This document shows, piece by piece, positions 11,501-54,900 of a stretch of DNA of 64,000 nucleotides. Position numbers and translations under genes: made by a program. Source of the DNA: Deuterostichococcus epilithicus (lineage: Eukaryota; Chlorophyta; Trebouxiophyceae; Prasiolales; Stichococcaceae); the NCBI GenBank assembly GCA_033439295.1, contig JAVTLE010000015.1, positions 434,001 to 498,000 of the forward strand. Direction: 5' to 3'. Every line of letters starts with the position of its first letter. The first letter of the stretch is position 1. Below the pieces are notes generated by a model. It made no database searches and was not told the DNA's origin. It was given only the letters and a program-made list of their open reading frames with translations.

Positions 11501-14500
11501 CGTCGCGGGGGTTGTAGTTGGGGATGCTGGTGGACCACCCTGTGCCGATGCCCTCCGCGCCGTTCAGCAGCACCAGCGGCAAGATGGGCATGTACCTGTC
11601 GCGCCAGACATGTGCGTTCCATTGGCGGCAGCACCCGCGTGCGTGTCGCAAAGGGGGGCAGCCCGCACTGCTGCACAGCACAACACGCCGCAGCAGCAGC
11701 AGCAGCACCACCATGCCCCTCAGCAGCTCAGAGTTCGAAGTCTACGTCGGGGAGGTGCTGAAACAAGTCGGAAGGGACGATTCTGAAGGGGAGTTGTCCA
11801 AGCAGGCGGGCAGCAAAACTTGCAACCCAATCGGGTGCACAATGCGCTCGTGTTCGGACGCACCACTCGGGCTCGATGTCCAGGCCCTCCTCGTTGAGGT
11901 AGGTCAGCAGGCAGTCGTCGGCCTTGTTGAAGACGTGGCGCGCGAGCGCCGCCAGCCGCGTGAAGATGTATCGGGGGGAGCTGGCGTCCTTGCCGCCCGC
12001 CACCCTGGAGCCGAACTGGCCTGCGCACAGAGTTGGGGTTTCAGCGGCCCGCTCAGCTGGCTGGCCAGAGCAGTGCGGATCTCACATCTAGAAGCTGGGC
12101 GTGCACATTGGAGGGGTCGACATCTGCACAGCTGCAGCAGCTGGCACTCACATGAACTCATCCACTCCCCCAGATGTTGCTGTCCCAGATGTTGCTGGAT
12201 GTTGCTGAGAGAGTGCACCGGCCTGCCAAAGCATTCGTGCGACTGCTCACCAGAGGGCACCAGCAGGTTGACGTTGTTGCTGCCCACAAAGTCCTGCGCC
12301 AGGCCGACAATGGTGCCCGCCAGGCTGGCCTCGCCGTGGTGGTACGCCGCGTGCTCGCTGACGTAGCCTGCCAGCTGTGCCACCTGCGAGTCCGGGCGGC
12401 GGCGGAGGTTCACCTATAAGACCCGGCCATCGGTCCGTCGAGACAGCCACAGGCAGCAGGTGCGCCACATGCATGGCCGGGCAGCAGCAGAGGTGTGGGC
12501 TTCAGCAGCCTCGGCTGTGCATTCGTGACCCCGGGAAGTCCTGCTGCAAGCCCTGAAAGGGGGTGTTCGCAGCGCCACAGGGGCTGTCGCAGAGCCGTTT
12601 CCGTTCAAGTTTGCGCAGATTCCAACACACCCAGCCGCATCAGCAGGCGCGGGGCGCAGGGCAGGCAGCACGAATGCGTCAAACACTACAGGGTGCAAGA
12701 GCCCACCTTAATGTCCTCCTTGAGGTTGCGCTTGAAGCAGCTGAACATGATCTTGCGCTGGCCCGGCTTGAGGCCGTCCACCATGCTGGGGATGGAGCGC
12801 TCCAGGTCCGCCCGTGAAAACAGGATCAGCTCCTGCGCACACGGGAGGGCACCTTGAAGCTTTCACGCCCGGTTTTTGCGAGACAAGCATGCCAGCCCGG
12901 CAGCCGGGACGGGCGCCACAGACTGGTAACAGCGCGTCACGCGCCATCACTGCGGCAGATGGCAGCCGGCGGACTGCATCGTCACATGCCTCGCTGGCAC
13001 CGAGTGCGCGCCATATCGTGCATCGGGCGGACAACAGACACCAACAGGGCCACATACGAGCAGCTGGCCGCCCACTCTGCGCGGCAAACATGTCTCGCCG
13101 CACCTTGTGCACGAAATCCGAGTAGGAGATCTGGGACGCCTCCGAGTCGAGGAAGGTGCCGGGCACGAAGCGCGACAGCCACGCCTTTCGGTCCTCCACG
13201 TGCTTCTTGCCAAATGCCATCTGGATGGCCTCCCCATCAGGGTCGCCTGCACGTTGCCGTGACGGAAGCCTCGTACGTGCGGGCGCAGCCGATCATGGGA
13301 GCCAGGCGAGTGCCAGCGGCGTCGGAAAACAGCAAGGGTCCCACACAGCACCCGCTGTGCGGGGCTGGACTTGGACCGCGAGTCTGTACTACACGTGGCG
13401 TCTCAGCAGGCTTTCAGTTTGTGGCCGCCTTCTGACTGGTGTGCTGGCTTGCAAGCAAACACCATCCGGGAGCAGAACACGATCAGAGCAGCCCGGTTCA
13501 GCTGCAGTCAGGCAGGCAGAGCGGCGCACCGCTCCAAACGAACTCCTTGCGGTTCATGTCGATCTGGGAGAAGTACTCGCGAGCCTCGTCCGTGTTGGAG
13601 GTGCCCAGCCCTTTGTAGTACTTGACCTGTGTTGCCATTGCGGATTTTGTTCAGACTTCTGCACCTGGCAGCAATGCATCGGCTAGGGGAGCCGCTGCGG
13701 GCGTCTGGAGAGCGCCTGCATCCAGATTCGGCTTCTCAGCGCCGGCAGGGCGGGTCACCTTCCAGCCGTCGGCGCCGTGTGTCTCCTTCCAGGCCTCGTA
13801 CTGGGGCATGGTGTAGAACACCTCCGTCTTGCTGCCCTTGCGCGCCTGCAGCAGACGACAAAATGGGATCAGAGAGTCGGTTCGTGACCCAGGGAGACTC
13901 GCCAGCCACCGCGCCAAGCCAGCCCAAGATTTCGGAGCCCTGCTGCCGGCCGCACTGTGGCGGCTTGCGCAGAGCATACCCCGGCGGAGGCGCCGCGCGA
14001 CAACCACCCGGCGCAGAGCGGGAGCGGGGGGGAGGCGCGCGCGCCTTGACGATGGGCGTGATGAACTCGATGAGGAAGCCGGGGACCTTCAGCAGCGACG
14101 GGTAGAAGTGGTGCATGAAGTTCATGAGCAGGCCCTTGATGTGTGAGCCGTCATGGTCCTGGTCCGTCATGATCATGATGTGCCCGTAGCGCAGCGACAC
14201 CGTGTCTTTGTAGTCCTGCGGGCACAGAGCCAAATTTCCGACCCGAGCGCCCCAGGGTCTGCAGAGGCGCGCAGCACACGAGGTGTCTGCTGTAACGAAC
14301 ATGATGCGGCTGTAGCGCATCGACATCATGTCCTCCGCCAGATCATTACGGACGCTGAAGGTTCCAGCATTTGCAAGAGAGCGGGCTGTTGCTAGTTGCC
14401 AAGTTTCGTGCAGGTGCTGGACAGAGGTGGCAAGGCAGTTGCAGATTGTTGAGCGGTCCACACATCTACAATCATATGTCAGGTTTTTCGGCATCAGTGC

Positions 14501-17500
14501 TGGATGCAGAACTTGTAAATAAGCGCACCTTGCCGTGCTGTAGGCCCATGATCTGCTTGATGTTCTGGATCTCGGTGTTGTTGGTGATCTGCAGCGCGTT
14601 GGCGTCTCGCACATTGAGCAGTTTGCCCCTGTGTACGGAGCAGCGCCATCCGTCAGCTCAACGTGGGACGCTTGGAAAATGCAGAGTGGCGCCTGCAAAC
14701 AGATCAGCAGCAACAGCGTGAAGCCTGTCTGGCACATAGCAGGTGGAAGGTCATGTGCAGACAACATCCCACAGGAGCTGCAGGGGCGACGTACCGCAGC
14801 GGGAAGACGCCAAAGCGGTCGCGTCCAACGACGGACAGCCCCGCGACGGCCAGCGTCTTGGCGGAGTCCCCCTCTGTCAGGATGAGCGTGCAGTCCTGCG
14901 AATGCTTGGTGCCGGCGTCGTTGGCGTCGTCCAGCTTGGCGATGCCTGCGTGCAGGGGGGATTTATGGGTATGAAGTGCAGCGGCACCGTCCAAATGTGC
15001 GTCCGCGCGTTGATATATAGGTCGGGGCCCCTGGCTGACGCGGGTGCACAGCACGAGCAGCGCACAGCGACAGGCCGCCAGCGGCAGCGTCTTGCTAGGG
15101 GCGCCTGAACGCATCTGCACCCGCTGGCCCCGCCACGCCGAGCCACTGTAGGCTGACGAGCGCCAGCGGCCGACGCCAGCACCCCAGCACTTCACGACGA
15201 AGTGGCAGGACAGCACGCACATGCTCCTGGACGGTTGAGCATTCTCAGCCGGTCGAGGCCCGACTTGAACCCTAAGCGCACCAACGAGGCGGCTGCGCTT
15301 TGCGCCGTCGCCCTTTTTCAGGCCCCGCTCCTCCTTGGACTTTGCAAAAGACGTCACCAGGTCCACCACGCCGCAGGCCGCTATCTTCTTCAGCAGCCCG
15401 TCCTCCAGCTCGCACTTGGAGCCGAAGCTGGCCACCCGCAGCGTCAGCGTGTCCTTGGTCTGCGGGCGGCGGGGGCAGGAAGCTCGGGTGAGGCGCGTCA
15501 GAGTTGCCAGGGTTCCGAGTCTTTGGAGGGCTGGGGACTGCAGTGCGCGCGAGCTCCGGCAGGCTGCAGGTGACGGAGCTGCACCATGCGCGATCAACAG
15601 AGCCGGCTGCAGTCTGCCGATGGTGCAGACCTGGAGAGGCCGCAGCAGGGGTCGGGACTGATGCCACGCACATGCACAAGGATCTGGCGTGGGGACATGG
15701 GAGGGGGCGGCACCGGGCTGCGGCGCGGACCTGGGAGTCGAAGGTGGGATTGTTGATGCGTGCGTTGACGAACACGCGCAGGTGGTTCTTCACCATGTAC
15801 GGCTTGACCTGCGCCTTCTTGTTCTTCTTGGTGATGACCTCCACCACGTACCTGCGTGGACAATGCGTTGGGGCCACGGTCACAGGGAGGAAACAGGAAG
15901 GAAGGAGGCCGTTTCTGTGACCACCTGTGAAGGGCAGAACAGCCTGACTAGTGTCCGAACCTCTTTCAAGACCATATGCCTGGAAATGCTGAGGGTGTTG
16001 CCGCATGCCGCATGCGTGTTCTGGAGAGCGCAGCACATGATGCGCACTTGGTGATCTGGTCCGTGACGTAGTCGACGTGCTTGCCGCCGTTGCTGGTGCA
16101 GATGGCGTTGCAGAAGCTGACCTGCAGCACCCCACAATTTCGGCATCTTGCCGCCACAGCCACAGCCACAAGACTCTGTTGCCTGACTCCGTTCACATGC
16201 ACAGTGCATCATCGCTTCTGCTCTGCTGACGGGTGCGCAGCGTTGGAACCTGTGGTGAGGACCGGAGTGCACCAGCCGAACGAAAGTTCGGCCAACCGCT
16301 ACCTATCCAAGCTCGTGTCACGCAGGAGACGGGCCCGGGCGTCACCTGCTGGAACTGGCCGTCGGAGGGCGCGATGCACACCTCCCACCGCTCATTGACC
16401 TGCTTGTACACGCGCTGCTCACCGCCCTGCGCACGACAGCAGATGGACATCAGCTGAGGCGCATTGACAAAGCCACAAGCACGGATCTGCACCAGCTGCT
16501 CTGGAGGCCTAGAGGTGGACTTGGCAGTCAGGCAGACCCAGGAAGCAGACCATGCTGCAGTGTTGCGACAGGACAGCGTCGCACAAGCAGGCCGACTGCA
16601 TTGCATTCTGAGTCGCACCTTGAGCACGTCGCCCAGGTACAGGTCGCAGTAGTCCTGGAAGGTCTTCACCTTCAGGAGCTCCCCATTGAAGTGCACCTGC
16701 GCAGGCGCCGACACACAATCAAGATGGAGCTCTGTGGAAAGCAGAGCTCGTGCAGCAGCAATAGCACAGCAGCTGGAAAGAGTTGATTGCGCTGCCTGGC
16801 CTGCATGGCGGTGGCAGCAGGACCAGACCAGCACGATGCTGATGCATGGGGCAGAGCTGGAGGTCTGCCCGGCAGTCTCTAGGCGACTTCAACAGGCAGC
16901 AGGGTGGCCTGGAGCCCTATCAAAATCCCTGTACACCCCACCTTGACATGCTTGCCCAGGACGCCGGCCATGTCGTACACGCGCTTGCGCAGCAGCGCGA
17001 CGCTGTCCTCTTCCAGCGCCGCCATACCGAAGCGTGCCAGGTCTGGCTTGAACGTGATCTACGTGGCAGAGGGAGGTTGTGAAGGGGTGTAGCGCTGTCA
17101 TGCTGGCTGGCTGAATGTCCTGCTGCCATATACCATGTAATTGCCCTAGGAGATTGGTCATGGCAGCCACTCAAGCCCGAGTTCCCTGACAGCGAGCCCG
17201 AGATTCCAGTTGCTGTGCATACTCGGAGGTGCGCCGCCGCGCCGGTTCTGCAGCCATGGCCATGCAGCTGTAGCTCCGACATCGTCAGCAAAGATTTGAT
17301 ATCGCTAGCTGCAGCACCCCGATGAGGCACAGGCTGCTGGGCGCACGGGGCAGCACACCTTTGTCCAGTTGTCCTTGGCGGCGCAGTCGGTGATGCGCGG
17401 CTCCTCGGCGACGCTCATGTTGTTGCGGAAGACCTGCTTGTAGCGCTTGCCGGTGTTGGCTCCGTCAGCGGTCTCCACTACGAACTCCAGGGAGTAGGCA

Positions 17501-19051: not shown

Positions 19052-22000
19052 ATGAGACGAGCTGTGCATTTGCTCACCTCGTTGAGGCTACTACCCACAG
19101 CCGCACCGGTAGAGCTTCTTGAGCATCCAGAAGCCTTGAGGCAGTCCTGGGCAGCCCTGCCAGCGCTCACTGCTCTTGCTCAGTCCTCCCGCAGCTTTCA
19201 CGGCGCTCACGACGGCAGATGCAATCTAGCGTCGCAGCAATGCAGCTCACCATGGCCAGCATGCTCGCCCACCGCCGCACATTCGCAAGCTCCCAGCCTG
19301 CCGCGCAGGAGCTTCGCGACCAGGCCCCGCCCCAACAAGCGGGTGCAGGCTGCCCTGGAGCGCCAGCGGAAGGAGCAGCAGCGGCAGGCTCAATCGGCCC
19401 CTGTGACGTATGATGCAGAGCCTGTGCCGGCGGAAGGCACCGCCGGGCCGGGCTCCGAGGTGGTGCCGTCAGAGTCTCAAGCAGACGCCGTGGATGTGAG
19501 TCTTGCATAATATTGGAGGTCTTACCCAACCTGCAATGTGCATGGTTTGGTTTTCGCATGAGCTGTCGTTGGTGACCACAAGGACGTTGCAATGCTTCAG
19601 CAAAGCTCAAGACTTTGTGCATTGCGCGCCTGCAGATCGCCAAGGTGGTGGACCACCCAGCGCTGATCATTACCCGCAACATAGAATGGTGAGTCTTGTG
19701 CAACATGTTATAGCAGATAGCAAAGCAAGCGACCGTGGCGCGCTTACCCCGCCTCCGCATCTGCGCAGGGGCACCGTCATCCTGGGCTTTGAACAGTGCA
19801 ACAAGTACACCGTCCTCAACGAGCAAGGTAAGACCAGAAATTGTCACAGATCAATGCCGTTCTCCTGCTGAGTCACGAGATTCGGAGAACTCGTCAGCCA
19901 CCACATTGCAGTCGCCTGTCAAATGCTGAAACCATGGCGACGCACGCTATGAACCCACAGTTTGCGTCGCACATCCTGCAGGGGAGACTGTCGCATTGCT
20001 GGCCGAGGAGGGCGGCGGCATGGGCACAGCGGTCGGGCGGCAGCTGCTGCGTCGTCGGCGGCCATTCACAGCGACAGTTTTCACCCCGGACGGCTCGCAG
20101 ATCATCTGCCGTGTGCGGCGCCCCTTCTACTTCATCAACGTGAGCGGCTCCACAAAATGTATACGCGGCAAGGGATTTGCCTTGGAGTGGCGCCTTACAT
20201 GGACCTAGGCGCTGGACATGCACTCGCCAACAACTCTTAGGATATTGAAGTTGGGCTGATCTGCATCAGCTTGCAACATTAGACACGCCGTACAAAGCAA
20301 GCTTGCGGCCTTGGGCGTCCACTGGCACTGAGGCAATGCTTATACAGTTGTCTGGCGCCGTCATGTGGAGCTCCGCCTTGATCGAGAAGCTCCATCTTGA
20401 TAAAAAACGGCAATGGCGCCGTGACACCAACAGCCTCTGGAGTGTTGGGAAAACTGGTCACCAAGTGGACATCTTGATGAATCAAGGAGGCGCCATGACT
20501 CATTGCCCGTCATGCAGAGCTCCATCTTCATCGAGGACGGCACGGGCGCGACGGTGGGCGAGGTCCACCAGCGCTGGCACCTGTGGCGCCGCAAGTACGA
20601 CCTGTACCTGGGGCGCCGCCAATTTGCCACCATCGACGGCGGCCTGCTGGCCTGGGAATTTGTGCTGCGCAACCAGGGTGGCGGTGCGATGAAGTGACGT
20701 TCTATGTGCTGGGAACATTTATTACACTGCCTTGGGTGACCTGAAATATTCGTCCAGTCACGCTTGGGCTGTCAGGCATTTGACGAATGCCGACCGTCGG
20801 GATGCCGCTCGGCAAGATCTCATTACGCAAAACACAGGGTGCTGCCCCGCCTGAGCATGCTCTGCCCGTACGCAGGCGTGCTGGCGCTGATCGACCGTAA
20901 TTTCCAGGGCTTCGGCAAGGAGCTGTTCACCGATGCGGGTGCGTGTGTCAGGATAACAACAAAATGAAGCTGTGGCGGTGACAGCTGTCATGCTGGAAAG
21001 TCTCTGTAAGGCATTTGAGCTGGTCCAGGATGTGGTGCGCCCAAGCGGATGTGACGGGTGCATCCGACACTCGTGTGGTATGGCGCTGTCGCCTGCTGCA
21101 GGCAAGTATGTCGTGCATTTCGGGGAGAGCCCGGCGGCCGCCGCAGAGCACACAGCCAACACCATCGCGGCGGCGCACCCTGACAAGCCGCGGCCGCCAG
21201 TCACGCCGCTGGCCAAGGCACGCAACGAGCTGGCGGTCATCCCCACGCAAGCCGGCAACCAGCTCGTGAGTGAACGTTCAGCCCCTGGTTCTTCTCGATT
21301 CCCAGCTGGTTGGCTCATACATCTGTGTTGACTTTGGCTTTCTCTTGGGACGTCAGAGGCGTTGCCTTGATGAGTATGGCAGTGGCCTCTGTCGCCGGCC
21401 AGCAGCTCCAGACCTGCTCACCCAAAACGTCGTGCATGGCAAGCATGGCAGGCCCTGATATTTTGGGTGCCCGCTGATTCAGGATGTGGTGCGGGGCCTT
21501 GGCATCACTGAGCGGTCTGCCGTGCTAGCGGCAGCCATCTCCATCGACTTCGACTAGTGTGTTTTCTTCTTCAACCATATGCGTCCCTCTGCTATCCCCT
21601 CTTCGTGAGCGCTGCTGCAACTGCATAGCACCTGGTTGCGCAGCTGTTCCTGACGCCTGACGGGGTTGCACTTCGTGGATGCAGCTTCTCGCAGCACTCG
21701 CAGGGATCGGGCATGATGCCCTTCCTCATGCCAATGCCGGTGCCAGCGGTGAGAAGCGACCTAGCTGCCTCCACACTGCCGAACTGCGCACATCATCTCC
21801 GATGCATATTAATACACCTGCTAACCACACGGCATATCATATCGTGTCATATTTGCCGCATTCTAGCAGTGCTGTCAGGCTCCTGCAACACTGAAATGGT
21901 AACTCGCTCGCCATGTACCTGCAGTACCCCGCAGAGGACGCGGGTGAGGTTGGGGAGGGGGCGGAAGGCGGTGCAGCAGGGGGCGGCGGGACAGCTGCAG

Positions 22001-27369: not shown

Positions 27370-28041
27370 ACCAAACACCCAGCGAACCCGGGAATCCACA
27401 TTAGTCAAATTTCAGCCCAGCGTGGCGCCGCTCGGGCCATCGAGCAGTGTAAAATTACACCAGCTGGTGTGGCGGCTGATGATTCGGACGTTCGATTGCG
27501 CTCCGGATTACTGGTGTGTAGCATTAGAAGCCAGGCAACGCCGCTATCTCAAGCCTGAGGTAAAGCACGAGTAGTGCAAGGAGCGGCGGCAGCTACGCAC
27601 GATTACCACGATTACCACTCGATCTCATCTCGTATCCAGATTTATTGTCCTCTCGAGAGGACGCCTTTCTCCAGGTCACACTGAGAGGGGAACATGTTTG
27701 TCATCACTAGCGAAATTGCGAGCGACATCATATTCAAATCCATTTTTGCGTGAATGATGGTATTGATGACTTACACGGCATATCACTATGTGAGGTCCAA
27801 CAGCTTCATCAGTTGTTCGTGCATCCGCTGTGCATGTTTCGATACATGAGGAAAGATCTCAATCTAAATTTTAAACAGATTGAAATTTGATTGACTGTAA
27901 ACCACCAGCGGCAATGTGCCGTTATAAATCACACTCTGGCGGCGCGGTTGATTGCAATCCCCTTTTATGACTCGTGATAATGAAGGGCAGTTGGGAGGCG
28001 GTTCGGAGGCAAGACGTCTTCAAGGTCACACGTTGTGCTTC
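27370..28041. other. Convergent spacer with AT-rich island
   Basis: Between RNF121 and the ADH, composition shifts from GC-rich to AT-rich (about 27640-27990). A small inverted repeat, tcaatct...agattga, sits near 27859-27883. TGTAA occurs at 27448-27452 on plus (for RNF121) and TGTAA on minus at 27771-27775 (for the ADH). No coding exon is seen. Confidence 0.5.
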
Positions 28042-31000: not shown

Positions 31001-31862
31001 CTGCGCCTGCTCCACGCCCTCGAAGTCGGGCGTCGCGGGCGCCTTGAAGGCGGCCACGATCTTGTCCCAAGACACCTCGCCTGCACAGTCATGGAGATGG
31101 ACAGGCAGGTTAGCGCCGTATCCCTGTGGCATCCATACCAAGGCTTCCACAGGTCGCACTTTCACAGGTCGCACCGCAGGCCCGAGTGCAGCTAGGTACA
31201 GGGCGCGCTCCCCAAAGGTGTAGCTATGACTAATTGTGTGCATGGCAGTGTGCAAGGGCGCAGCACCGAGGCTCTGAGGTAGCAGGCTGCTGGAACTTGA
31301 CGCAGAGCAGGCTCGTATGTTGTGTGCATGGTGGTGCAAGGATCGCCTGAAGGGCTGCGAACGCACCACTGCTGGTGGCAATCTCCTCAGCCGCCTTGGC
31401 GTTGCCATATTTCTTCGCCAGCGTCAGCAGCTCATCCTGCAAGCCAAGCATTTCAGCTCAAGTTGCAAAGCCGCAGCTCGCACAAATCCAAGCGACAGGA
31501 CGACGAAGGGTGTCATGAGGGTGTCATGCATCGCAGTACGTCACTAGATGCAGCCCGTGGTACCAAGTGACGAAGCTCAGGCCCTCACGCAAAAGATCAT
31601 GAAGCTAGTGATGACTGCTTGCCAGGCAGCAGCGAGCTGGAGCCGCTGGTCGTAGTCGCACGGAAGCCGAAAGTAGATGACCACTGATGCGGCCGTGACA
31701 AAACTTCAGCTGGCGCTCGGAATCTTGTGCCGGTGGATCGGAACAAAAACTCCTCACCTGGTTCAGGCCGCTACTTTGGTGCGTCGCCTGTTTGAACAGG
31801 GCGAAGGCGCGAGGGTCCTGCGCAATCTGGTCCTTCGTGGGCTGCGCGACATTCAGCGTCAT
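28042..31862 (-). CDS. CAD: Cinnamyl-alcohol-dehydrogenase-type zinc ADH with N-terminal extension
   Basis: Zinc-dependent medium-chain dehydrogenase, normally NADP(H)-linked, interconverting aldehydes and primary alcohols. In algae, which lack lignin, the substrate is unknown. Thirteen exons close to 441 residues: 31862-31758, 31436-31367, 31080-30887, 30716-30667, 30459-30372, 30185-30042, 29777-29590, 29366-29165, 28974-28889, 28619-28571, 28456-28415, 28265-28233, 28116-28042. Catalytic zinc site: HCGICHSDLHQV (Cys near 127) and PGHEITG (His near 152). Structural zinc site: four Cys in SCRECPQCKADAEQFC. Coenzyme fold: GVIGLGGLGHMAVKIGKAMG, then TVLSTSEKKRQEA; the Ser after the strand favours NADP over NAD (inference). 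The C-terminus VHYRFVIDV is typical of CAD. An extra segment of about 90 residues (MTLNVAQPTKDQIAQDPRAF...) precedes the enzyme; I do not recognise it. Intron 5 seems to have a GC donor (AAG|GCGAGG at 30371). Confidence 0.95.
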
Positions 31863-38200: not shown

Positions 38201-41200
38201 ACGCAAGGAGCAGGGTGCGCGAGCACCGGCGCAGTAGTGGGGTCTGGCTGCGGAGGCACCACATTGACAACTGCTTGACACTTTCCTGTGCACAAATTTT
38301 TCATGTGAGCAGAACTTTCCTGTGATGAGGCGCACACCTGCTGAGGAGTGGGGATTGGAGGCGGAGGTACCCAGCAGCTCCACCAGCAGTCGCTGCATCT
38401 CCTTCTGCATGCACTCCCATGCGTGGTCCACCTCCGCCCGTGCCTGCCGCAGGATCAATGGTTCACATCAGCAGCATGTCGACCAGTTCACTATTCGTTG
38501 TCGACAGGCGTAGTCCATCATGTCACTGGTTGATAATTGACCGATTCAGCTGCTGCCTGTGATTTCGTGTGTGTGGCATTTGTTCGCCGTGCATGTGCAT
38601 GTGCTCTTTGCACTCGCTTGTCAGCCGCCAACGCCTCCCATGTTGTCAAAGGCAGGCCATCGTGGCCCTCGTGACATGACCGGCCCACCACCCCTTGCCT
38701 GCCGCACCTGCTGCCGCAACAGTCGCCTTGGTGCAGCTGCTGCTGCGACCGGAGCTTCTGTGCGCACCTGCTGCTGCGACAGTGGCTCCTCGGCGATGCG
38801 GATGCCCTGCTCCTGGCGTTGCGCCAGCAGCAGGTCCAGTCCCGCCGACGCGGCCGCTGGCTTGGCTGCCGCCAGCAACCGCATGACCGCCACCATGTTC
38901 GCCAGCACCTGCGCCATCGAAGAAACCAAAACTTGATAGTGGCTTCGTCGCCGCCAGCAGCTGAACGGCCGCGACCTGGAATGACATCTGGCCGGCACTG
39001 GAATGACTACATGGTCCGGATCAGGACGTGCCTGGGTGGACCCCTCGTGCACCGCCCTGGCCGGATCGGGCAGAGCAGCGCATCGCCAATGGCCATGATG
39101 CAGAATGCTTCCTTGCCCGGGCCCCTTTCTCATCCCCACGGGGCGGAACCCCCTTCATGCATGCAAGCCCCAGCACACCTGCTGGCAGTCCTCAAACACG
39201 TGGTGCAGGGCGGCCTGCGCGGCCAGGGTCACCTCCTCTGTGTCAGCCGCCCGGCTGTTGTCCTCCACCTGCGGAACCGCAAACCCTGAACTGTCATCTG
39301 CTGTTGTGCGAGACTGCCGATGCGAAATAATCCCGCCTCGCCGCAATTGAGTGCTGTGGCTCGGGATGCGGGTTGCGGTATCAAGTGGTGCAATAGTGGA
39401 CTGCGTGCGGCTCGGACCACCACTGAGTCAGAACGTTCTGCACATAACACGAAAGCAGGTGCTGAAACTCTGAACCCTTCGACAGGAGTCCGTACCCGCA
39501 TGTGGACGCGGCTGCCACCTAGCGCGCAGGTCTATAAACCCTTCGAATGGCTCTCGTGATTGTGGACGCAAGAGAGCGCTCCTCACACGCACCTGGGGAG
39601 CCGGTTCCACGGCCTCAACAGCGCGCATGATGGCGTTGTGCATCTGCAGCGGCGCATGCCGCCGGATGGACAGCACCGTCTCCGCCACACCGCCGATCTG
39701 CGCGGTGCGCAGGACTCTGACATGGGCGATGCCAGGCCCGTTCGTGGCGCCAAAAACCCCGCAGATAATCGGGTGCACGTGATGCCACGCAGCAATCGCA
39801 GCCGCTGCAATAGCCTGTGCCGAAGGAGTGAGGGTAGCCCAGCTGTTGGATGAGGTTCGCAGGTTTAGGGTTTGTGACCCAGTTGAGATGATGGGAACCG
39901 TGTACGAGAATACAGCAGGGGATCTGGGGTGGGGCGCTCACTGCGACGAGCGCGTCCACAAGCGCCTGCAGCGGGATGGCGGCAGCGCCGCCCTCTGGCG
40001 CCTTGTGTTCGCCGGCTGGGCCGCCAGCGCCGGCGCCGTCAGCCGCCGCTGCGCCGCCCGCAGCGCCCTGGGGACGCCCCAGCTGGACCTGTGAAGGCGT
40101 TCAGGGGATGGCGTGATGGGTGTCGGCCTGACATGGCCTCAGTCTGTGGTTGCTCAAGGGCCGGCCCACGCCAGTCAGCAAGCAAACACGAGCGAGATGA
40201 TCTGCGATGAAGCAGCTTTTGAAGCACATGCCTGCCTCGGTTCGTACGCTGTGACACCAGCATGCAAGGTGGTATTGGCGCATGGACATGCACACAAATC
40301 CGATGGTGTACACTCTCATCTCCTGTGCACTTGTCTTCCCGGCAGCGCACCTGCGAGGGGCGGCGGCCGATGACGAGGGAGGAGCGCCGGCGCTCGACGC
40401 TGGAGTTGCGCCGCAGCCGCTGCCCGCCGGCTGCCAGGCGTGACGGGCCTTGGGCGCCGCCGCCGCCTCCGCCAGCCGTGTGCGGCCCCCGTGTGCTCAG
40501 CACCATGCTGCTGCGCGGGCGCGGCCGCTGCGGCACGCTGCCGCTCCTGCGACGACGGGCGTTGCGTTCAGTGGCAGGCCTGGGCTCGCATGCAGCACAG
40601 CAGCAGTGTCTCGGAGCTCGCGACAGTCGCTCAGCCGCTGGGAGCTTCACAGCCAAGGGGCAAAGGTGACAGCACCACCAGTTGATGGCAGCCGCGAAGG
40701 CAGCACCTGCTGGCATTTGCTGTGGCAGAGCGCCGAAGGTCCAGCACCGTGCTGTGCCTCGACTGCTTGCTGCTGGTGCTGCGGCCTGTGTAGGATCCAT
40801 GCGACACATCAAAGGGGACGCTGCACAGCGACGATGCCACGAAGCCTTGCATTTGCCAGACGACATTCCAGCCGAGACATCACGAGGATCGGCGCAACCC
40901 GGGACTGCCACGACCTCCACACTCAGCCTGGCGGCGGACCACCTAAATGTGGCGCACGGTCGTAATGGAGGTTCTCTGCAATCAGTCCTCGATCTCGAAG
41001 TGTTGGAAGAACTCCTCAACAGTAGCAAGACCCTAAAACCTCTACGCTCTGCGCACCCAGGACCATGGATCGCCGGCCGTCCGCCATGCGCGACTGCCGT
41101 GACGCGATGACCATCGAGCGCCGTGCATCGAGCACCGCCGACTGCCGGCTGCGGGCCGGGGATGATTCCTGCGCCCCCTGCAGTGCTGGCACCTGGACAC

Positions 41201-43303
41201 GGCGTTGCATGGGATCAGCACCGCCTCATGGCAACCAAGAGACCGCAGGATGGCATCGACATCGTTTGCAGCGCCCTTGGCTGCAGGCTGAGTGCGAGCC
41301 GGCTGCGCCGCGGCCACCGGCGACAGAGCTGCTCACTGATGAGGTGACGCTGCCCGCTTGCATGGCGCCTGCCGTGTCAACAGCCAGCCTGACGCAGAGG
41401 CTACTGTCATGTACATTGTCATATACCCTACTTTGCTGACTACCTAAACCCTAAAACACCTCGTCCATGACGAGCGTCGCCGACAGCTCCGGCGTCTCGT
41501 CCTCGTCGCTGCTGCTGTCGGACGCCTCCCCGATGGCGGTCTGGTACAGGCGGCGCTCGAGCTCCGCCACCACAGACTTCAGCAGCACATTGCGCCGCAC
41601 GCCCATGTCCCGCTTGAGGTCCCGCAGGGCCCCGATCTGCGGAGCGCACGTGTGCTGTTCATGTTGTCGTCTTGGCGACACAAGCCAATGGCGAAACGAT
41701 AACAGCATGGGGGCACGAGCTGCAATCGTTTGAACAGCAGCGATCCCCGGGGTTGCAGCGGGATTGGTCAAGCAAGCGGTCGCCACGATCGCGGCCCCAC
41801 TGATCCGTGTCGCCAGGAGCAGGCGGCGCTTGCGGAGTCGCGCCTTGGACATCTCCTGCCGCGCAAGGCGGCTGCATCCGTCGAGCAGCAGCGCTGATGC
41901 GGCGGACCAGTCTTCTGCCTCCTCCTGCACGAGCCGCACACACGCACACACAGCATCACCATCAAGGAAGTGCGAGTCCAAAAGGTAGAGACCAGTGGAC
42001 GCCACATGTAGAAGGCTTTTGCAACGATCGGATCGGCTGCACCAGGGTGGCGGCCATGCTGCGGCATCGACCACGCACCAGCTTCTGGATACGGGGCGGG
42101 ATGTCGACCAGCGCCTGCACGTCCGCCAGCAGCGCGCAGGTCGCATCCAACGTCACGCTCCGCCGCCACTACCCCGGGTCAGCCACACCGAAGGTCATCT
42201 CATACACACGAACAAGGCCGGCCGCATACCCTGTTCCCGGCAGTAGCAGCAGTGCGGCACCTTCAGCGGCATGCGGCTGGGCTCCAGTGCAGCCGCGTCA
42301 CGCCACAGGCGGCGGGCCTGCAGTTCCCTGGTGCGTCAACTTAAGACTGACCTTGAGCTAAACAAACCCCACACCCTGCAACGCGCACCTGCTGCTGCAG
42401 GCTGCGGGAGGTGGTGCCCAGGCGCCGCTTGGAGTCTTCCATGTTGCGCTTGACCGTCTCAACCTGTCGAGACAGGCAGACGACGTGTCAGGTTTGACAA
42501 AAAGGCAGGCCCTGCACAAGTCGGCTGTGAGGTTGTAATGGAGTGGAGCCGTGACAGAGTTGTGCAACCCAGCGCCTGAGCATAACGCTTATTCAGATTC
42601 ACTTGTGTTGGACAATTTGCAGACGGAGCGCAGCGCCTCATTGGAGCCGCACCTGTGCCTTGGCCTCCGCAAACAGCTGCAGGATCTGGGAGTAGTTATG
42701 AATGGCCTTGTTGAAGCCGTTGTGGTACGTGGCCACAACGTCATCGACCAGCCCGTCCACCGTCTCAAACTGCTCCCGCAGCTGCGGGCAGGAAGGGTAA
42801 CAGAGGCATCAGTTCACATCTCGAGCTGCTGCCGCAGCTGCGGGCGGCATGGCCAGGCATGGTGTTTAGCCCGTCCGCTCCGCCCACTCGCTTTGACGGC
42901 ACTCATGTGACCCAAAGCGAGAAGCGCTTTGGATCATAGCCATGCACAAGCCGGCGCGCTTGGGCGGTCAAGCTGCAGGTGCCCATGTCGAATGGCCCGT
43001 TAATGTAACAGTGATGCGACCTGCTTCAGCAGATAGTTACACAGGCGCCAGATGCAACCAGGCAATCGTCGGCAGCCTTGCCGGAGTACATCCATCACTC
43101 TGCATGCTTGGCTCTCATGCGCAGGTACAGAAGGACAAGCGAGACTCGGAGCGCACCTCCTCAAGGGCTGCCTCCGAGTCAACGGCACCGAGCACGGTCA
43201 GCACATGTTTCAGCGAGTCGAAGCGCGCATCCTTGTAGACCGCAGGTAGCAGATACAGCGCGTCGTCGACCTCGTCCCAATCAACGCGCCGCTCCTCCTC
43301 CAT
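32252..43303 (-). CDS. SEC8: Exocyst complex subunit SEC8 (EXOC4)
   Basis: Subunit of the octameric exocyst that tethers secretory vesicles at the plasma membrane. Twenty-six exons close to about 1145 residues (human 974, Arabidopsis about 1050): 43303-43157, 42781-42653, 42463-42389, 42317-42261, 42168-42079, 41924-41844, 41636-41460, 41192-41057, 40785-40707, 40510-40351, 40088-39942, 39697-39593, 39268-39179, 38908-38768, 38443-38371, 37964-37822, 37479-37366, 36984-36830, 36384-36188, 35470-35249, 34953-34742, 34310-34161, 33956-33880, 33539-33416, 33046-32816, 32377-32252. The N-terminal coiled-coil part (TYHNGFNKAIHNYSQI; RRSVTLDATCALLADVQ; IGALRDLKRDMG) and the C-terminal helices (AINEAGVARMVRQL; ARTYYTLLTYSADSLVKV; EYLALLQV) line up with known SEC8. 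Exons 8-10 encode an extra Arg/Ser-rich insert. The start of exon 8 is uncertain, and exon 6 needs a GC donor. Several introns hold exon-edge copies. Confidence 0.9.
34357..34382. repeat. (GCT)n microsatellite in a SEC8 intron
   Basis: An uninterrupted GCT triplet run of about eight units lies in the intron between the exons at 34953-34742 and 34310-34161. It is noncoding in the gene model. Confidence 0.8.
35005..35060 (-). repeat. Decayed copy of a SEC8 exon start in the preceding intron
   Basis: The real exon starting at 34953 reads GGGDAAEAEVLARLLQERG. The intronic copy on the same strand reads GGGDAAGAEVPARLPQERR and then loses similarity. The match spans about 55 bases with scattered substitutions. 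Confidence 0.75.
35144..35201. repeat. Tandem 19-bp repeat in a SEC8 intron
   Basis: The 19-mer caggtgcgccagaggcgcc occurs twice in direct succession (35161-35179, 35180-35198), preceded by a partial third unit (cagaggcgcc). It lies in the intron after the exon 35470-35249. The unit contains CAGGTGCG, which resembles the local donor consensus, so it repeats a splice-donor-like sequence. Confidence 0.75.
35997..36080 (-). repeat. Decayed copy of a SEC8 exon end in the following intron
   Basis: Bases 36001-36080 match 36185-36263 with many substitutions; both contain the order aggtgcg..c..cccacagcaggag.cga.gac.gcatgcgg. The original is the 3' end of the exon 36384-36188 (DRMLSSLLLWAAHLPPFATHL). 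The copy lies downstream in transcript order, so here the exon end, including the donor side, was duplicated. Confidence 0.65.
37048..37085 (-). repeat. Decayed copy of a SEC8 exon start in the preceding intron
   Basis: The real exon at 36984 starts GCGCAG|CTGCTGGAGGAGATGTGGGAGG. The intronic copy reads GCGCAGCTGCTGAAGATGTGGGAGG, including the acceptor AG, and is three bases shorter. Similarity then fades. Confidence 0.7.
37540..37597 (-). repeat. Decayed copy of a SEC8 exon start in the preceding intron
   Basis: The real exon at 37479 reads AQDLSGMLMKALGGQGG. The upstream intronic copy reads SQALSGMLTKALGGQGA in the same frame, about 50 bases with few changes. It is the best preserved of the SEC8 copies. 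Confidence 0.75.
38702..38752 (-). repeat. Copies of a SEC8 exon end in the following intron
   Basis: The exon 38908-38768 ends in CTGTCGCAGCAGCAG|GTGCGCA. Just downstream in the intron are CGGTCGCAGCAGCAG (38735-38749) and CTGTTGCGGCAGCAGGTGCGGCA (38702-38724), the latter again with a donor-like GTGCGG. The low-complexity CAG content weakens the case. Confidence 0.45.
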
Positions 43304-44047: not shown

Positions 44048-47000
44048 ATGCTGGGCAGCGACAGCAGCTGCGAGCTGTTGCCACATCGCTCGACGCTGCT
44101 GCGTAGCCATCGAAGCCAGGGAGTGGTGCTGTCCGATAGCGATTCCTCACTTGTTGCGCCGCAGCGGGCAGCAGCACCTGTGACGACAGATGCAGCAATG
44201 CGGATACCAGCTGCACAAACGTCGCCAGCGCGGCATCTTTCGACCGTAGCGCTGCCCAATCGATCGTCGCCAGTCCCCAAGGAGCTGCAGCTGCGCAACT
44301 CATCCGCTGCACAGCGTCGCAGCGTCGACAGCGCTAGAGCAGCGCAGTGCAGCACGGATGGCCTGGCGGCTCGCATCTCGCAAATGCGCATAGGCGGTGC
44401 CGTGGACCAGCTGCAGGCTGCTCACGCAATGCCAGGCAGTCAGCAAGCCTGGCCGGATGCCAGCAGACCGGTGGCAATGGGCGCACAATCGCCGGCACAT
44501 GCCGAGGCCACCGCACCCAGCTCAGCAAACAGCCTCGGCGCGTCAGCCGGCTGCAGCAGCAGCTGCAGCAGCAGCGACGACAGCAGTGCCAGTGGAGGGC
44601 TAACCTTCACCCGCTCAATCCGACGGGGGCTGCGGCGTGCAGTGGCCAGCGACAGCGAGTCGGAGCCTCCCGCCAGCGAGCAGCTGACACCAGGCGCATG
44701 CGCATCGCCCGCTGGCGCGCCTGCAGAGTCAGCAGCGGCAGTCCGCCGCCTCAGCTTTGCGGCGCCCGGGTCGCCGCCAACAGTGGGCAGCAGCGGCGCC
44801 AAAGGCGGCGCCAGAGCCGGCCCAAGCCCTGCTGCGCCGCCGCCTCCGCGGCAGCGGCTGCCGCAAAGCTCACTCAGACCGGCGACAGTGCGGTGGGCTC
44901 ATACTGCGGTGCCGTCGCAGGCGGACGACTTGGCAGCGGACCTTCAGTGCTTGCGCCTCAGCTCCCAAGCTGCTTCGGCGGCGCCTGCTGGCGGCGGTCG
45001 CGACAGTGACGGCTCGCCAGGCAGCGTAGACTCTCCAGAAGTTATCTGGGCAGCCTCGCACACGCCGCGGCGGCGCCGCGTGGTGCTCTCGGACAGTGAC
45101 TCAGAGTGCTCCTTCCGCTCTGGTGGCGCGGCGTCAGCGGCATCCACGGCAGGCCATGCAGTCAGTCCACTGGTCAGCTCCGCGACGCATCCGTGTGCAG
45201 CGGGATCTCACGCGGCAGCCATGCCAGCGGCGGTGCAGCCGGCCGCGCCCGCCACGCCCTGGCGGTGCACGCCACCATGCCAATTCTCCGCCCCCCGACC
45301 GCCACCGCCTGCCACAACTGCAACGGCGCAGCGTGACGGCCTGCATGCACAAACACCGCTGCTTGTGCCCGGGGCCGGGCGGTTGCCCATCGGCCAGGCG
45401 CCTGGCGGCGGCGCCTCGGGTCTGGCTGCACGAGCTGGGGCCGGCGACGGCGACGACAGCAGTTCGTCAGAGGGTCCCAACCCCTTCGAAGCGGCGCCGC
45501 TGTGGATGTCCAGCCGTAAGCGGCCGCCGGCGCCGGCTCTGGCCGCGACGCGCGGCAGCCTGGCGGCCATCGAGGCGGCCGCCGCGCCGGCGCCGCCGCG
45601 GGTGAGGCGGGGCGCGGGTGCAGGTGCCCGTCCGCCGCCGCAGGTTATCACCCTCAGCAGCGATGACGAAGTGGGGGCCTCCCCGCCCGCTCAGCGGCCG
45701 CAGCCCGCCACCATGCCCCGCAGGCAGGCTCCTGATGCGAAGGAACTAGTTGTCTTTTGTTCCTGGGCCGGACTGATTCTTTGTGTCACTGCCCTGCTGG
45801 CAATGGGCGTGACAGTGCCGCTACCCGGCCGTGCGCCTTGATCTGCAGCGTCTCGAAGTGTGTCCTTTCCGGATGCCATGCAGGCGGCTGACAGCCATGG
45901 AATCAGAGTCTCCGGACAAGGAGAATCTGGGTAGCCTCAGCACGCCCGCTGGCAAGCCTGGCCGCCCGGTGCAGAAGCACAGCATTGTCACAGCGCCCGG
46001 GCCAGCCGCCAGGCCGGCAGGTGTGCTGTGTTCAGCACAACCAGCTGCTTGCTGGGGTAACATCAACTGCTGTGTCATGCTCCTGTCGCATCCAGCAACT
46101 AGCTACAACGACCTTCAGCGAGGATTGCTCTGATGCCCCTTTCCTTGGGGCCTGCATGCAGCTCCATAGCTGTGGGTCAGAGCTTGGGAGGTTATGACCC
46201 TGCTGCTGACGGTATGGACTATGCTGATCGCCGGTGGCTGAATGAGAGCTGCCGACGCCGCAGACCGCGCGCCCGCGACGCCCGGCGCCAAGCCCGGCCC
46301 GGCCTTTGCGCGCCAGCGAGAGGAGCTCACCCGCTCCCTGTACCAGCAGTGAGTTTCTGCAGGAGGTTCTCGAATCCCGTAGGAGGCTCTCGAGGCTCAT
46401 GCTGTGCTGCGGTGCTCCGATCAGCATGTCGATAGCCCCGTCCTTTGCTCAATGCTCAGCCATTGAGGCCTCTTGCATCGCGGGGCGTCACAGGTGGAAT
46501 GTCACAGCAGCTGGCTGAGGGACTGCCTGCCCATCTAAAGGCGGTTTCTTTCCGGCCCTCCAGGTACAACGCCAGAGTGTTTGGCGGCCGGCTGCCGCCG
46601 GACCTGCAAATCACGTGGAGCAAGCACCTGCTGACGACGGCAGGCATGACGCACTACAAGCAGGAGCCGCCACTGGGCCTCTTCGGCAGCCCCAGGTGCC
46701 GTACCCCGACTGCTGATGCATGTTCGTCTGGTTATCGATTGTGCTCACGCCAATTTCCCCAGTGTGCGTCAGGCATCCCTGTCTGGGCAGACGTATGGTC
46801 CTGCCTACTGTAGACACACCGCGCGTGCAAGGACCTGAGCGTCAAGGGTGCTGGACGGGCTGGCACACAGTTTGCAGGCTTACGGATTTCTTGTACCGTA
46901 CAGCATATCATAATGTAGGTACCCTGCTCGTGTGGAGCTGGGAGCCCAGGTGCTGGACCATGCAGCCGGCTGGAGCGTACTCTTTGAGCTCCCGTCCCGA

Positions 47001-48352
47001 GCTCACTCATCCCACTTGAACCTGCAACGCACAATTTACTACTAACCCCAGGTACACTCTGCAAGTGGGGCAGAGCGCCAAGGACCTGTACTGCGCGGAC
47101 CGGCTGAAGCGCCGTCTTCAGGGTTTTGTAACTTTCAAATCTTATCATAACCGTCCATGACCTCAAGCTGTTGACAGGCAGCACCCTGGCACAACAGGTA
47201 CTCCGCCCGAGTGGAGCTGAGCGCCAAGGTGCTCGACAATGCAGACCGGCTGGAGCGCACGCTCGCGCACGAGCTGTGCCACGTCGCTGCCTGGCTTTTC
47301 GACCACGTCGCCAAGCCGCCGCATGGCAAGGTGCAGAGGAACTCGTCACATGCATATGCGATCTCACTTGCAAGCCCGAGCTCACAAGCCATTGCCGCGT
47401 AGGCGCTCTGGCGCGCCATTCGAATGCATGGCGCCTGCAGCTGCCGCGGCGTGCCCAAAGCCGGCTGCGGGTTATGGCCAGCTCCTCTGCCGCTGCTCTT
47501 TGGCGCATTCCGCTTGCCACTGTTGGACGTGCCGGCGCCCATGCCGCCCCTCAAGTGGCGTTCGTTCTTCAATGTGCTGTCTGACACCGAGGGTGCCGCG
47601 CCCGCAGGTGTTTTACAGCTGGGCGGCTCGTTTCACGGCGGCGTTCCCCCACCTCGATATCACCACATGCCACACCTACGCTGTCAACTACGCCTTCAAG
47701 TGGCAGTGCACCAACCCCTCGTGAGTCTCAGATCTCACCCATGCATTCGATGCCAGCTAGCTGTCGTCACGAGATTATCGGGGCTTTGCTCATCCGCGAA
47801 CGACTCTCTTGCTCAGCAGGCATTCGAACCGTGCGTAGGCGGCTTGTCGAGACAGAATGAAAGTCGCTGACGCAGGTGCGGCAGGGTGTACGGGCGGCAC
47901 TCCAACTCGCTGGACGTTGGCAAGAAGTGCTGCGGGGTGTGCCGAGCGCGGCTGGAGGCCCTGGGGCGATTCAACGCCGATGGAACGCCCGCCAAGGCGC
48001 GCGCGCCCTCCGCCTACAGCCTCTTCGTCAAGGTACTTTTTGAACTCTGATAATTTGTTGTGATTCCTTGACGTTGACCCTGTGTGGCCTCCCCCCATGA
48101 CATCCCTTGGTCTGGTCGTTCAACTGTTGTGGAGGGTCGGTGCATCTGGAGGGGTCAACTGCTTTCAATGCTCAGCAAGGTGTGCCATCATCCCATGTTG
48201 ACGGCGGTGCTGTTCACTCGGGCGAACTTCCGCATGGACTGCAGGAGCACTTCGCAGCGGCAAAGGCGAAGGCGGCGCCGGGTACGCCGCACCGCGGGGT
48301 CATGAAGCAGGTCGCGGAGCTCTGGAGCGCCCAGAAGCAGGCGCCTCAATAG
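44048..48352 (+). CDS. GCNA: GCNA/ACRC-type SprT metalloprotease for DNA-protein crosslinks
   Basis: Nuclear SprT-family zinc protease; GCNA in animals, plants and yeast (Wss1-like role) removes proteins such as topoisomerases covalently trapped on DNA. Eight exons close to 866 residues: 44048-45748, 45849-46020, 46264-46348, 46564-46695, 47198-47330, 47608-47720, 47876-48032, 48245-48352. Exon 1 is a 1.7-kb intron-free block coding for a disordered Ser/Ala/Pro-rich region of about 570 residues with SUMO-interaction-like motifs GVVLSDSDSS (near 25), RVVLSDSDSE and QVITLSSDDE. The protease core has YNARVFGGRLP, then catalytic HELCH (about 721-725). A zinc ribbon follows (CTNPSCGRVYGRHS, KKCCGVC), then a short HMG-box-like end (APSAYSLFVKEHF...). 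This domain order matches GCNA rather than SPRTN. The exon 1 to 2 junction is the least secure. Intron 4 contains two decayed copies of exon 5. Confidence 0.92.
46919..46980 (+). repeat. Decayed copy of GCNA exon 5 start (copy 1)
   Basis: From AG|GTACC this stretch follows exon 5 (47198 on) closely: gtggagctgggagcccagg against gtggagctgagcgccaagg, then tgctggaccatgcag and ccggctggagcg. The translation would be broken, and it lacks the HELCH region. It lies in the intron before the real exon. Confidence 0.75.
47050..47122 (+). repeat. Decayed copy of GCNA exon 5 start (copy 2)
   Basis: A second copy begins cccaggtacactctgcaag and continues with cagagcgccaaggacctgt and gcggaccggctgaagcgc. It can be compared with gagcgccaaggtgctcgac and gcagaccggctggagcgc in the real exon. 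It keeps an acceptor-like ccccag|gtac and ends near a donor-like agg|gtttt, so it could conceivably act as an alternative exon. Confidence 0.7.
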
Positions 48353-51900: not shown

Positions 51901-54900
51901 TCGACCAGAGGCCCGATGACACGCACTGCGGCTGGTTGCAGATTTGCTCAATGCTCCTGTGCACTGTTTGTGCTGCTGCACGACCGCAGACTTGTTCCAC
52001 AAGCCACATGCCTTCCGCCTGAGCTCAACATGCATGCTCTAGACCGTAAAGCACTCAAACTACAGGCGGGCGGGCTGCGGCCGCTGCTGGACCTGCTGGA
52101 GAGCCGCAACGGCAACCTGCAGCATAATGCAGCCTTCGCGCTGTACGGCCTGGCCGACAACGAGGACAACATCGCCGACATCGTGCGCGACGGCGGCGTG
52201 CAGCGCCTCCAGCAGTGCGACCTCATAGTGCAGGTGACTTGCCCCGCTACTCGTCGTCGGGTCTGCAGGTTGTTGTAGGAAGTAGTTGCATTGCAGGGCT
52301 GAGTTCTCGGGGGCTTGCGTCGACAGCAGGCGGCTTCCTGTGTTGCAGCGTGCTGTCGAGCTGATTTGCAAGGTGATGCCTGCCACATCATTGCGTCTAG
52401 ATGTAAGGAAAAAGGCCATCTTCTGCGCAGGCGTCAAAGGACTGCGTGCAGAAGACGATCAAGCGGCTGGAAGAGAAGATAACAGGTGCGGCGCCCTGGC
52501 GCATCGCCGCTGCATCTGCACTTTTCCCGGCACCTGCTGCCTCATGCGGCTTGTGCGCTGTGCGATTTGTCACAGGGTTTGCGGGTAGGGCCGGCGGCAC
52601 AGCTGCTGTAAGCACCCTCAGCCTGCAATCCCGGCAGCCAGCCCACAGCGTCTCGTCATCCAGGCTGTCGCCTCAACTGTCCTGCAGGCAAGGTGCTGCA
52701 CCAGATACTGTACGCGATGTACTCATCGGACCGCGCGGTGCAGCAACGGGTGGCCACCGCCCTGGCTCGCCTCGCCGCACCCGCCGACCTGAAGACGGTG
52801 TGCAACTCGAGCAGAATTGTGGGCACTGCTGCTGCTGCTGCTGCGGGTGCTTCTGTGCCGTGACACGAGCTGCGACAGTGGCTGCCTGGTGCGACAGGCG
52901 CGATCTTGCACTGGCTGGGACCGACCTGCTGCCCTGCGGCAGTAACAGACTCGATCGCAGCGGCAGTCGTCGTCACGGTGACGCGCATGGTTGTCGCACA
53001 GGCGTTTGTGGACCGGCGGGGCCTGAACGTGCTGGTCGACATGCTCATCGACTCCAAGCAGGAGGGACTGCAGCGGGAGGCCGCAGGTGCGGTCGCTGCT
53101 GCAGTTTTCGGCTCTCTCTTCGCTGGGCTTGGATAGTCACTGGGATAGTCGCTGGTCACCTGCCCAGGCCGCCTGTGCCGTGCGGCTTCCGCCGGGCATC
53201 GGCCGCTGCAAGTTTGCGCGATGCGGGCAGCACATGCGCGCCAGACATTTGCACCGGCATCTGGCTGCCGCTGCGAGCAAATATTTTGCAAGCAGAAAGG
53301 GCATCACGCACCCCTGCGGCGGCTTGACAGGCGGTGCCGTGGCTGCGCAAGGCATGGCAGCGCCATGAGGTGTCATGATGCACACTCCCTCATGGCTGCT
53401 CCCCAACCCCTCGCGGCTGATGCCCCGCAGACGCACTGTTCCAGTTGGCAAAGAAGGCCAACGCGACGGGGGACATGGACTGCCCGCCCGCGCCGCCCGC
53501 CCCCCAGATCTTCCTCGGCGAGCAGTACGTCAACAACCCCACGCTCTCCGATGTCACCTTCCTCGTCCAGGTGCGGCCCTTTTACGAGTTGAAACATTTT
53601 GATTTACACAAAATCACTGACGCTCTGCGGCCCGTGACGCCGGCTTCTATGCCTGCCGTGCGCCAGCTCTCTCGTCGTGGACATGTCGTGTGTCGAGCGG
53701 CCAGCAACCCGCCCGGATACATTCAGCATCCACCATCTAGCCCTTGCTGGCCAGTCGCAGCATTCACGACAGAAGGCCCGAGTTTACGTGTTGTGGTTCT
53801 TCTGTTCTTTCACATGGCCACCCACTCAAGACTGCCCGACAACCCCTCGCAACTCTCGTGCAGGAGCGCAAGTTTTACGCCCACCGCATCGCGCTGCTGG
53901 CGTCCAGCGACACCTTCCGCGCCATGTTCGACGGGCACTACAAGGAGAAGGAGGCGTCTGTCATCCCCATCCCCAACATCCGCTTCGCCGTCTTCGAGCG
54001 CATGATGCGCTGCATCTACACAGGTGCAACCCCGGAAACCTGAGCCCCAAGGCCCAAGACCACCTGCATTGCAATGATCCGAATGGGGCTGCCATGTGCT
54101 GCCGCACTCACACGTTGCACGCCTGCCGATCAGCAGCAGCGGCAGGAGAGCGGCGGCAAATGTGCGGCAGCCTGCATGCCGAGGATGCGTGGCAGGCGCT
54201 GCAGGCGCCCCTGCCTGACCTTGGCTGTCAGGAACTCCTGCTGGACACCAGAGTCACACGACACCGGTGCCCCGCGGGCAATGTGGAGGTGTGGGGTGGC
54301 ATTGCAGGTACTTAAAGAGTGACGCCTCCGGCTCGCAACTTAAAGCTCGCAACCGAAACTCCTGCGCAGGCATTGTGGAGGCGCTGGCCGGCATCGCTTA
54401 GCAGCTGCTGAAAGGAAGAGACAGTGTGTCCTGTTGCCTATTCTGACAGCCATGATGGTTCCCTGCCACACAGGCAACGTGGAGGTGCCGGGCGACGTCG
54501 CGGAGGAGCCTGCTGCAAAGCAAAGGGAGTGTCCACATACTCCTGAAGACCCTAAATCTCTGCCTTTTGTTTCCAACAGGGAACGTGGAGGTGCCGGGCG
54601 ACATAGCGGAGGAGCTGCTGCAGGCGGCGGACCAGTACATGCTGGAGGGCCTCAAGCGGCTGTGCGAGGTGGCCATTGCGCGCACGCTCGCCGTCGACTC
54701 GCTGTCCGCGGCGCAGGAGGTGCGCTTGATGCCCGCCTCCGCTGCGGATACCAACACCACGCTTGAGCGCGACGCTTGAGCTTCAGCAGAGCAGAGAGGG
54801 AAAGGGAAACCAAGGCAGCACCATGCAGTGCTGCTGCCTGCCCCTGCGGCCTGCCTAATGCGCGCGGGGCAGCTTCCAGAGGGTTGTTGGATGGTGGTGG

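Follow-up and report, generated by a model that had tools for sequence, protein, structure and literature searches.

What are worn, partial copies of exon edges doing inside the introns of unrelated genes? The question is raised by a stretch of 64,000 nucleotides from the green alga Deuterostichococcus epilithicus, here called the window (bases 434001-498000 of contig 13; the genome comprises 46.8 Mb in 21 contigs). An initial annotation, made from the sequence alone, had reported such copies in TOP2, a scramblase gene, SEC8, GCNA and ARIA. Echoes, as these copies are called below, were indeed found in all five genes, with three each in GCNA and ARIA, and the analysis confirms that introns of this genome carry real echoes of the edges of neighbouring exons. 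The best single account of them, and probably the correct one, is that segments of about 115 bp have repeatedly been duplicated in tandem across the splice junction.

Sequence and gene models

The DNA analysed consisted of the window and further stretches of the same genome, amounting to 244 kb initially and to 284 kb later. Gene models were built with a home-made gene finder whose training set was 244 kb, and the micro-exons that it predicts are often spurious. The window has a G+C content of about 62%, and the gene models are intron-dense; the median length of predicted introns is 205 bp (616 introns). This intron density and length are similar to the figures published for Chlorella-type algae: the intron statistics in PMC12636532 give C. 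vulgaris a mean of 7.3 introns per gene and a mean intron length of 206 bp.

The submitted protein parts gave Pfam matches to scramblase; to TOP2 (gyrase B, Toprim and HATPase); to SEC8 (Sec8_N); to SprT-like/GCNA; and to Arm together with BTB. Other gene names, namely NDUFS4, ADH, eIF3g and CSB/Snf2, are presumptive and follow our own reading of the translations. Aligned with solved Top2 chains of the yeast type, the TOP2 protein shows no break at the intron carrying its main echo, so this echo lies outside the expected message. All other exon junctions rest on the gene models; for GCNA, a solved relative was sought for a check of the junction, and none was found.

Are the echoes above chance?

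The junction-anchored scan used the 45 bp of exon at each junction and accepted an intron match only if it came within 10 bp of the edge. Across 515 usable introns in 284 kb, it returned 27 echoes in direct orientation and none in the reverse-complement control; they lie in 26 of the introns, or about 5%. Nor do all parts of an exon find a match: when anchoring was not required, exons of at least 135 bp matched the intron with their near edge in 18 of 471 cases, with their middle in 0 of 471 and with their far edge in 0 of 471. The initial annotation had made its case depend on intron-exon self-similarity being higher than in shuffled introns, and higher it is. At a Smith-Waterman score of at least 120, introns matched the next exon in 24 of 449 cases and the previous exon in 20 of 449, compared with 39 and 34 of 2245 for shuffled introns, 39 of 2245 for exons of other genes, and 13 and 12 of 449 for the reverse complement.

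The signal also appears when the gene models are left aside. Direct repeats counted in 244 kb gave 22 matches at lags (the distance from copy to original) of 100-125 bp, where lags of 5-6 kb predict 0.5, and the counts dropped to near background beyond a lag of about 175 bp. Once merged, the repeat pairs at lags of 40-175 bp numbered 62, of which 41 were exon-intron, 11 intron-intron, 9 exon-exon and 1 intergenic; a BLAST version with lags up to 1000 bp gave 29 pairs (17 exon-intron, 8 exon-exon, 3 intron-intron and 1 intergenic). Inside the window, the strict scan found 6 echoes in 5 of 132 introns, and the remaining window echoes are weaker or model-corrected cases. Single weak cases stay doubtful, though the class of echoes holds. 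The divergence of the echoes argues against a simple assembly artefact.

Anatomy of the echoes

Most echoes, it had been proposed, copy the next exon. This does not hold in the larger sample, where 13 of the 27 anchored echoes copy the head of the next exon and 14 the tail of the previous one. Their lag ranges from 50 to 172 bp, with a median of 116 and a middle half of 102-128, and does not differ between the two directions (p 0.47); the recognisable exon part has a median of about 48 bp.

Some echoes form arrays. The lags are 146, 279 and 384 in GCNA, and 122 and 241 in a helicase-like gene just right of the window (L018:605-1088), while ARIA shows steps of 92, 104 and 106. The suggestion that the nearest copy can be the best preserved is borne out in ARIA but fails in GCNA, whose nearest copy, at lag 146 (44/61), is less well preserved than that at lag 279 (54/65). 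The spacers between the copies look unrelated in both genes, and a search within 700 bp gave no clear source of the spacer in most of the cases examined (20 of the 27). When the GCNA and ARIA introns were compared with the genome, only their own locus was matched among the best candidates scored; an introner or mobile element, which should have related copies at many places, was rejected for these two introns.

The youngest-looking echo, at L018:605-1088 (lag 122), lies just upstream of the helicase-like exon and retains the acceptor CAG; it is a possible alternative acceptor. In the left flank, a single intron of 249 bp (L017:5724-5972) holds an echo of the previous exon together with one of the next, and subtracting the lags of 95 and 126 leaves a core of about 28 bp.

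Do the echoes still look like coding sequence? Two distinct sets of 27 are involved: the z-filtered matches, used for the gap counts and a first count by codon position, and the junction-anchored echoes, used for the edge-region mismatches and the crossing, placement, splice-site and length tests. In the z-filtered matches, whose alignments include poorly matching far ends, the mismatch by codon position was 0.239, 0.271 and 0.266, and 95 of 102 gaps were not a multiple of three. For the 27 anchored echoes, counted over the edge region, the values were 0.142, 0.175 and 0.212, a mild third-position excess, as expected when an unconstrained copy is compared with an exon whose own changes are largely silent. 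The decoy AG is retained in 6 of 13 next-exon echoes and the decoy GT in 9 of 14 previous-exon echoes. Altogether, the echoes look non-coding. An alternative or mutually exclusive exon should conserve its reading frame, and the codon positions and the frame-breaking gaps speak against this candidate. Among the fates that the initial annotation had offered, neutral debris fits best, given the lack of a coding signature and the partial retention of the decoy sites.

Probable tandem duplication across splice junctions

How could such copies come about? In the account favoured here, units of about 115 bp (mostly 85-170 bp) would have undergone tandem duplication at numerous sites across the genome, presumably through fill-in and end joining at staggered breaks. 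Where a unit straddles a junction and the outer splice site is still used, the extra copy would become intron and the protein would stay unchanged. The exon half would remain recognisable, its original being under selection and changing little, while the intron half would decay on both sides; repeated rounds would give sets of two or three copies. We infer that the outer splice site is in use in the genes other than TOP2 as well.

Intron length agrees with this account. The 26 echo introns have a median length of 360.5 bp, compared with 215 bp in the other 489; after subtraction of the lag their median is 248.5 bp and the difference is gone (p 0.17). The echo introns appear to have gained, net, about one unit each, an indirect estimate from intron lengths in this one genome.

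The trace of the intron half is found in a minority of cases. Gapped alignment detected similarity running through the junction into the intron at p<0.05 in 7 of 27 echoes (Fisher p 6e-5), the strongest being L018:605-1088, C1:518950-519595 and C5:513973-514382. In these three, the alignable intron and exon parts together about fill the lag, at which the alignment was bounded, and a filled lag is the trace expected of a tandem duplication of intron end plus exon head, or of its mirror image. An ungapped junction profile, with no clear intron similarity, had pointed to copying that goes no further than the exon edge; this was rejected because the gapped alignment does cross it in that minority. 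An earlier junction test, in which some copies were mis-paired, found similarity at p<0.05 in 2 of 16. The mechanism originally suggested, local tandem duplication across splice sites, is favoured by the narrow lag, the longer introns and the seven crossings, but it leaves the intron half missing more often than neutral duplication predicts.

Must junctions be preferred targets? When units of 95-135 bp were placed at random, one junction was spanned in 40% of draws, and 31% fell inside an intron. The excess of exon-bearing copies is by itself no proof of preference, because such copies stay visible longer. A direct repeat lying wholly within an intron was seen at L014:6465-6616 (C5:516465-516616), with a lag of 64 and about 80% identity over 88 bp, so short duplications extend beyond exon edges.

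Observations that fit poorly

Several observations weigh against junction-spanning duplication as just described. The intron half went undetected at p<0.05 in 20 of the 27 echoes. In simulations fitted to the 24 usable cases, obligatory copying of both halves gave a poorer fit than a mixture in which the intron half is absent from 32-54% of echoes (2dL 7.8-13.1; 200 bootstrap replicates, p 0.005-0.02); the model is simple and the sample small, and at an indel rate of 0.5 the preference for the mixture is weak (2dL 3.0). These fits drop three of the 27 anchored echoes: both ARIA rows, because their exon model was wrong, and one whose flank was too short. The third echo of ARIA, echo C, is preserved at 92% over 48 bp, yet its flank match is weak (score 47, cut 54), and the flanking intron is not clearly copied. 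Pairs confined to introns are scarce, at 11 of 62 in the model-free count and 3 of 29 in the BLAST version. When size distributions were combined with the geometry, uniform, 1/l and short exponential forms were strongly rejected as the source of the narrow lag, and an exponential with a mean of about 100 was rejected weakly (p 0.045). The narrow lag is therefore suggestive rather than firm, and the unit size lacks a firm explanation. Uniform placement of the unit on the junction was also weakly rejected (p 0.039).

Is the intron half simply too old to be seen? A gene pair that we take to be ADH-like (L005/L006; window 28024-31885 and G000:C10:626518-630467) is 74% identical over 4 kb; in the one global alignment made of this one pair, exons are 91.3% and introns 68.7% identical, with 0.07 gaps per mismatch. 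With introns this similar and so few gaps, intron sequence of comparable age should still be alignable, and the pair can usefully serve as a clock for the divergence of introns here. A duplication-sized difference was sought between the two copies and none was found, the largest gap being 34 bp. Two candidates could account for the missing intron half: biased gene conversion, and copying that ends at the exon edge. This excess of missing intron halves and the narrow unit size are both points absent from the initial annotation.

Competing explanations

Each of these candidates belongs to a rival explanation. Tandem duplication could be followed by gene conversion, the exon halves continuing to exchange while changes carried into the real exon are purged, and the intron halves passing the divergence at which conversion ceases and then drifting apart. 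This is rather unlikely, though it agrees with the poor fit of obligatory copying of both halves, and with the little dependence of the intron half on exon similarity: an intron half (score at least 54) was present in 4 of 11 echoes with an exon score of at least 130 and in 4 of 13 below it. On the other side, there is no direct sign of conversion tracts. Less likely again is an edge-specific process in which some 50 bp of exon would be copied, with the copying halted close to the splice site and an offset of about 115 bp preferred. Such a process would act on both exon sides and genome-wide, often without intron flank, and would perhaps be tied to transcription, splicing or chromatin. It would explain why near edges match and middles and far edges do not, why the lag is narrow, why the intron half so often escapes detection, why the mixture model fits, and why the spacers between the ARIA copies and between the GCNA copies look unrelated. 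However, seven cases do include intron sequence, the lags of the two classes overlap by eye, and the exponential size spread is rejected only weakly; moreover, a concentration at exon edges is also expected when one of the two copies is under selection.

Could the echoes instead be kept by selection, as functional alternative or decoy exons? This is improbable. Some decoys do score as high as the real site (4 of 8 next-exon echoes that have an AG within 3 bp, and 4 of 11 previous-exon echoes that have a GT within 3 bp), and the gene finder took parts of two ARIA copies as exons, but the codon-position bias does not go beyond what the silent changes of the real exon would give, the gaps break the frame, and copy B of ARIA has, by eye, an in-frame stop. 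Chance similarity, low complexity or gene-model error is refuted for the class and very improbable as its general explanation: GC-rich sequence lifts the background and some models contain spurious micro-exons, but against it stand the zero counts in the reverse complement and in exon middles, and the lag peak found independently of gene models. Hardly credible, and the least probable of all, is that the echoes are relics of intron gain via a duplicated exon segment bearing AGGT. Three of the four GCNA copies, the real exon counted, do start with AG|GTAC. Yet such a gain predicts a copy of the next exon at the donor end and of the previous exon at the acceptor end, the reverse of the order found, and an intron as long as the unit, whereas the introns here are longer; the intron gain considered in the initial annotation is not supported in this form.

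Echoes in the genes of the window

In TOP2 (minus strand), the main echo at 14290..14334 copies the next-exon head with a lag of 126 (34/45) and lies in the intron 14216..14528 of the gene model, whose junction was the one checked against the solved Top2 chains. A second echo at 11657..11707 (minus strand, lag 126, 37/50, z 3.3) is weak and lies in repetitive sequence. A weak echo of a previous exon, at 9689..9718 (minus strand, lag 102, 24/30, z 3.4), belongs to the gene model left of TOP2 or to the C-terminal part of TOP2. The scramblase echo, on the plus strand at 20388..20419, copies the exon starting at 20518 (lag 130, 25/32).

SEC8, on the minus strand, holds several echoes. The one at 37541..37581 (lag 108) copies the head of exon 37366-37473 and is preserved at about 90% over the best 52 bp, acceptor side included. 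Exon 34742-34953 is echoed at both ends, its head at 34995..35065 (lag 113, 83% over the best 54 bp) and its tail in the following intron at 34633..34682 (lag 118, 39/49). Further echoes are those of a next-exon head at 38940..38976, beginning 14 bp in (lag 82, 28/37), of a previous-exon tail at 38227..38260 (lag 111, 25/34), and of the head of exon 42653-42781 at 42813..42857 (lag 56). A predicted 9-bp exon contained in the echo at 34995-35065 and a predicted 21-bp exon overlapping that at 38227-38260 are both taken as spurious.

The GCNA exon starting at 47198 (plus strand) is preceded by echoes at 46816..46856 (lag 384, 31/38), 46919..46983 (lag 279) and 47052..47112 (lag 146). In ARIA, also on the plus strand, echoes A (54272..54306), B (54365..54405) and C (54470..54517) copy an exon whose true start is judged, from the continuation of the exon, to be 54580; the gene finder had called parts of two of them exons. 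Echo C, at a lag of 106, is both the nearest and the best kept, and was called as a 57-bp exon (window 54474-54530). A CTGAC upstream of it, noted by eye, could be a branch point. Echo C is the best candidate for occasional use as an exon.

Significance

If junction-spanning tandem duplication is the right account, what follows from it? With about 5% of usable introns showing a detectable echo, duplications of some 115 bp may be one of the chief routes by which introns lengthen in this genome. The echoes could also serve as built-in clocks: one copy is under selection and the other is free, and old duplications would remain visible after those confined to introns have faded. They supply ready-made decoy splice sites, and their narrow size and missing intron halves bear on the origin and persistence of short duplications close to splice sites.

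Relation to known systems

Tandem exon duplication is a local duplication beside an exon. The echoes differ from it in that exons of at least 135 bp gave no middle or far-edge match, whole-exon copies not having been searched for separately. A search of the open-access literature, with most subscription journals outside its reach, found no genome-wide class of exon-edge echoes described, and the relevant parts of PMC3446292, PMC4111847 and PMC12636532 do not mention them.

In the potato RdRp gene, according to the account of that locus in Ma et al. 2016 (PMC4974935), a tandem duplication across an intron-exon boundary gave a new intron, and a further 83-bp tandem duplication occurred within the first intron. 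The likeness is that the duplicated unit takes in the last part of an intron together with the start of the exon that follows. However, the potato event gave rise to a new intron and to extra exon sequence, whereas here the intron merely grows and the protein is taken as unchanged; also unlike it, the echoes are spread over many genes, occur at either end of an exon and have units of a narrow size. The Rogers or AGGT type of intron gain, as outlined in PMC4974935, likewise places exon sequence inside an intron, but differs in copy order and intron length. Novel introns arising by duplication are described for Drosophila in the pertinent passage of PMC2891723.

As for the cause, small tandem duplications are known to result when staggered DNA breaks are filled in and their ends joined (PMC8355091), and rice insertions of 10-1000 bp are recounted in a review (PMC7407515). 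Staggered-break duplications are likewise small, direct and made by repair, while the passages on them in these two sources are without the narrow size of about 115 bp or the loss of intron halves. Such an origin should leave breakpoint signatures in fresh events; most of the echoes are old. Duplication spanning a splice junction is thus already known, and the likeliest cause of the echoes is ordinary in kind; it is their narrow size, their reach and their missing intron halves that set them apart.

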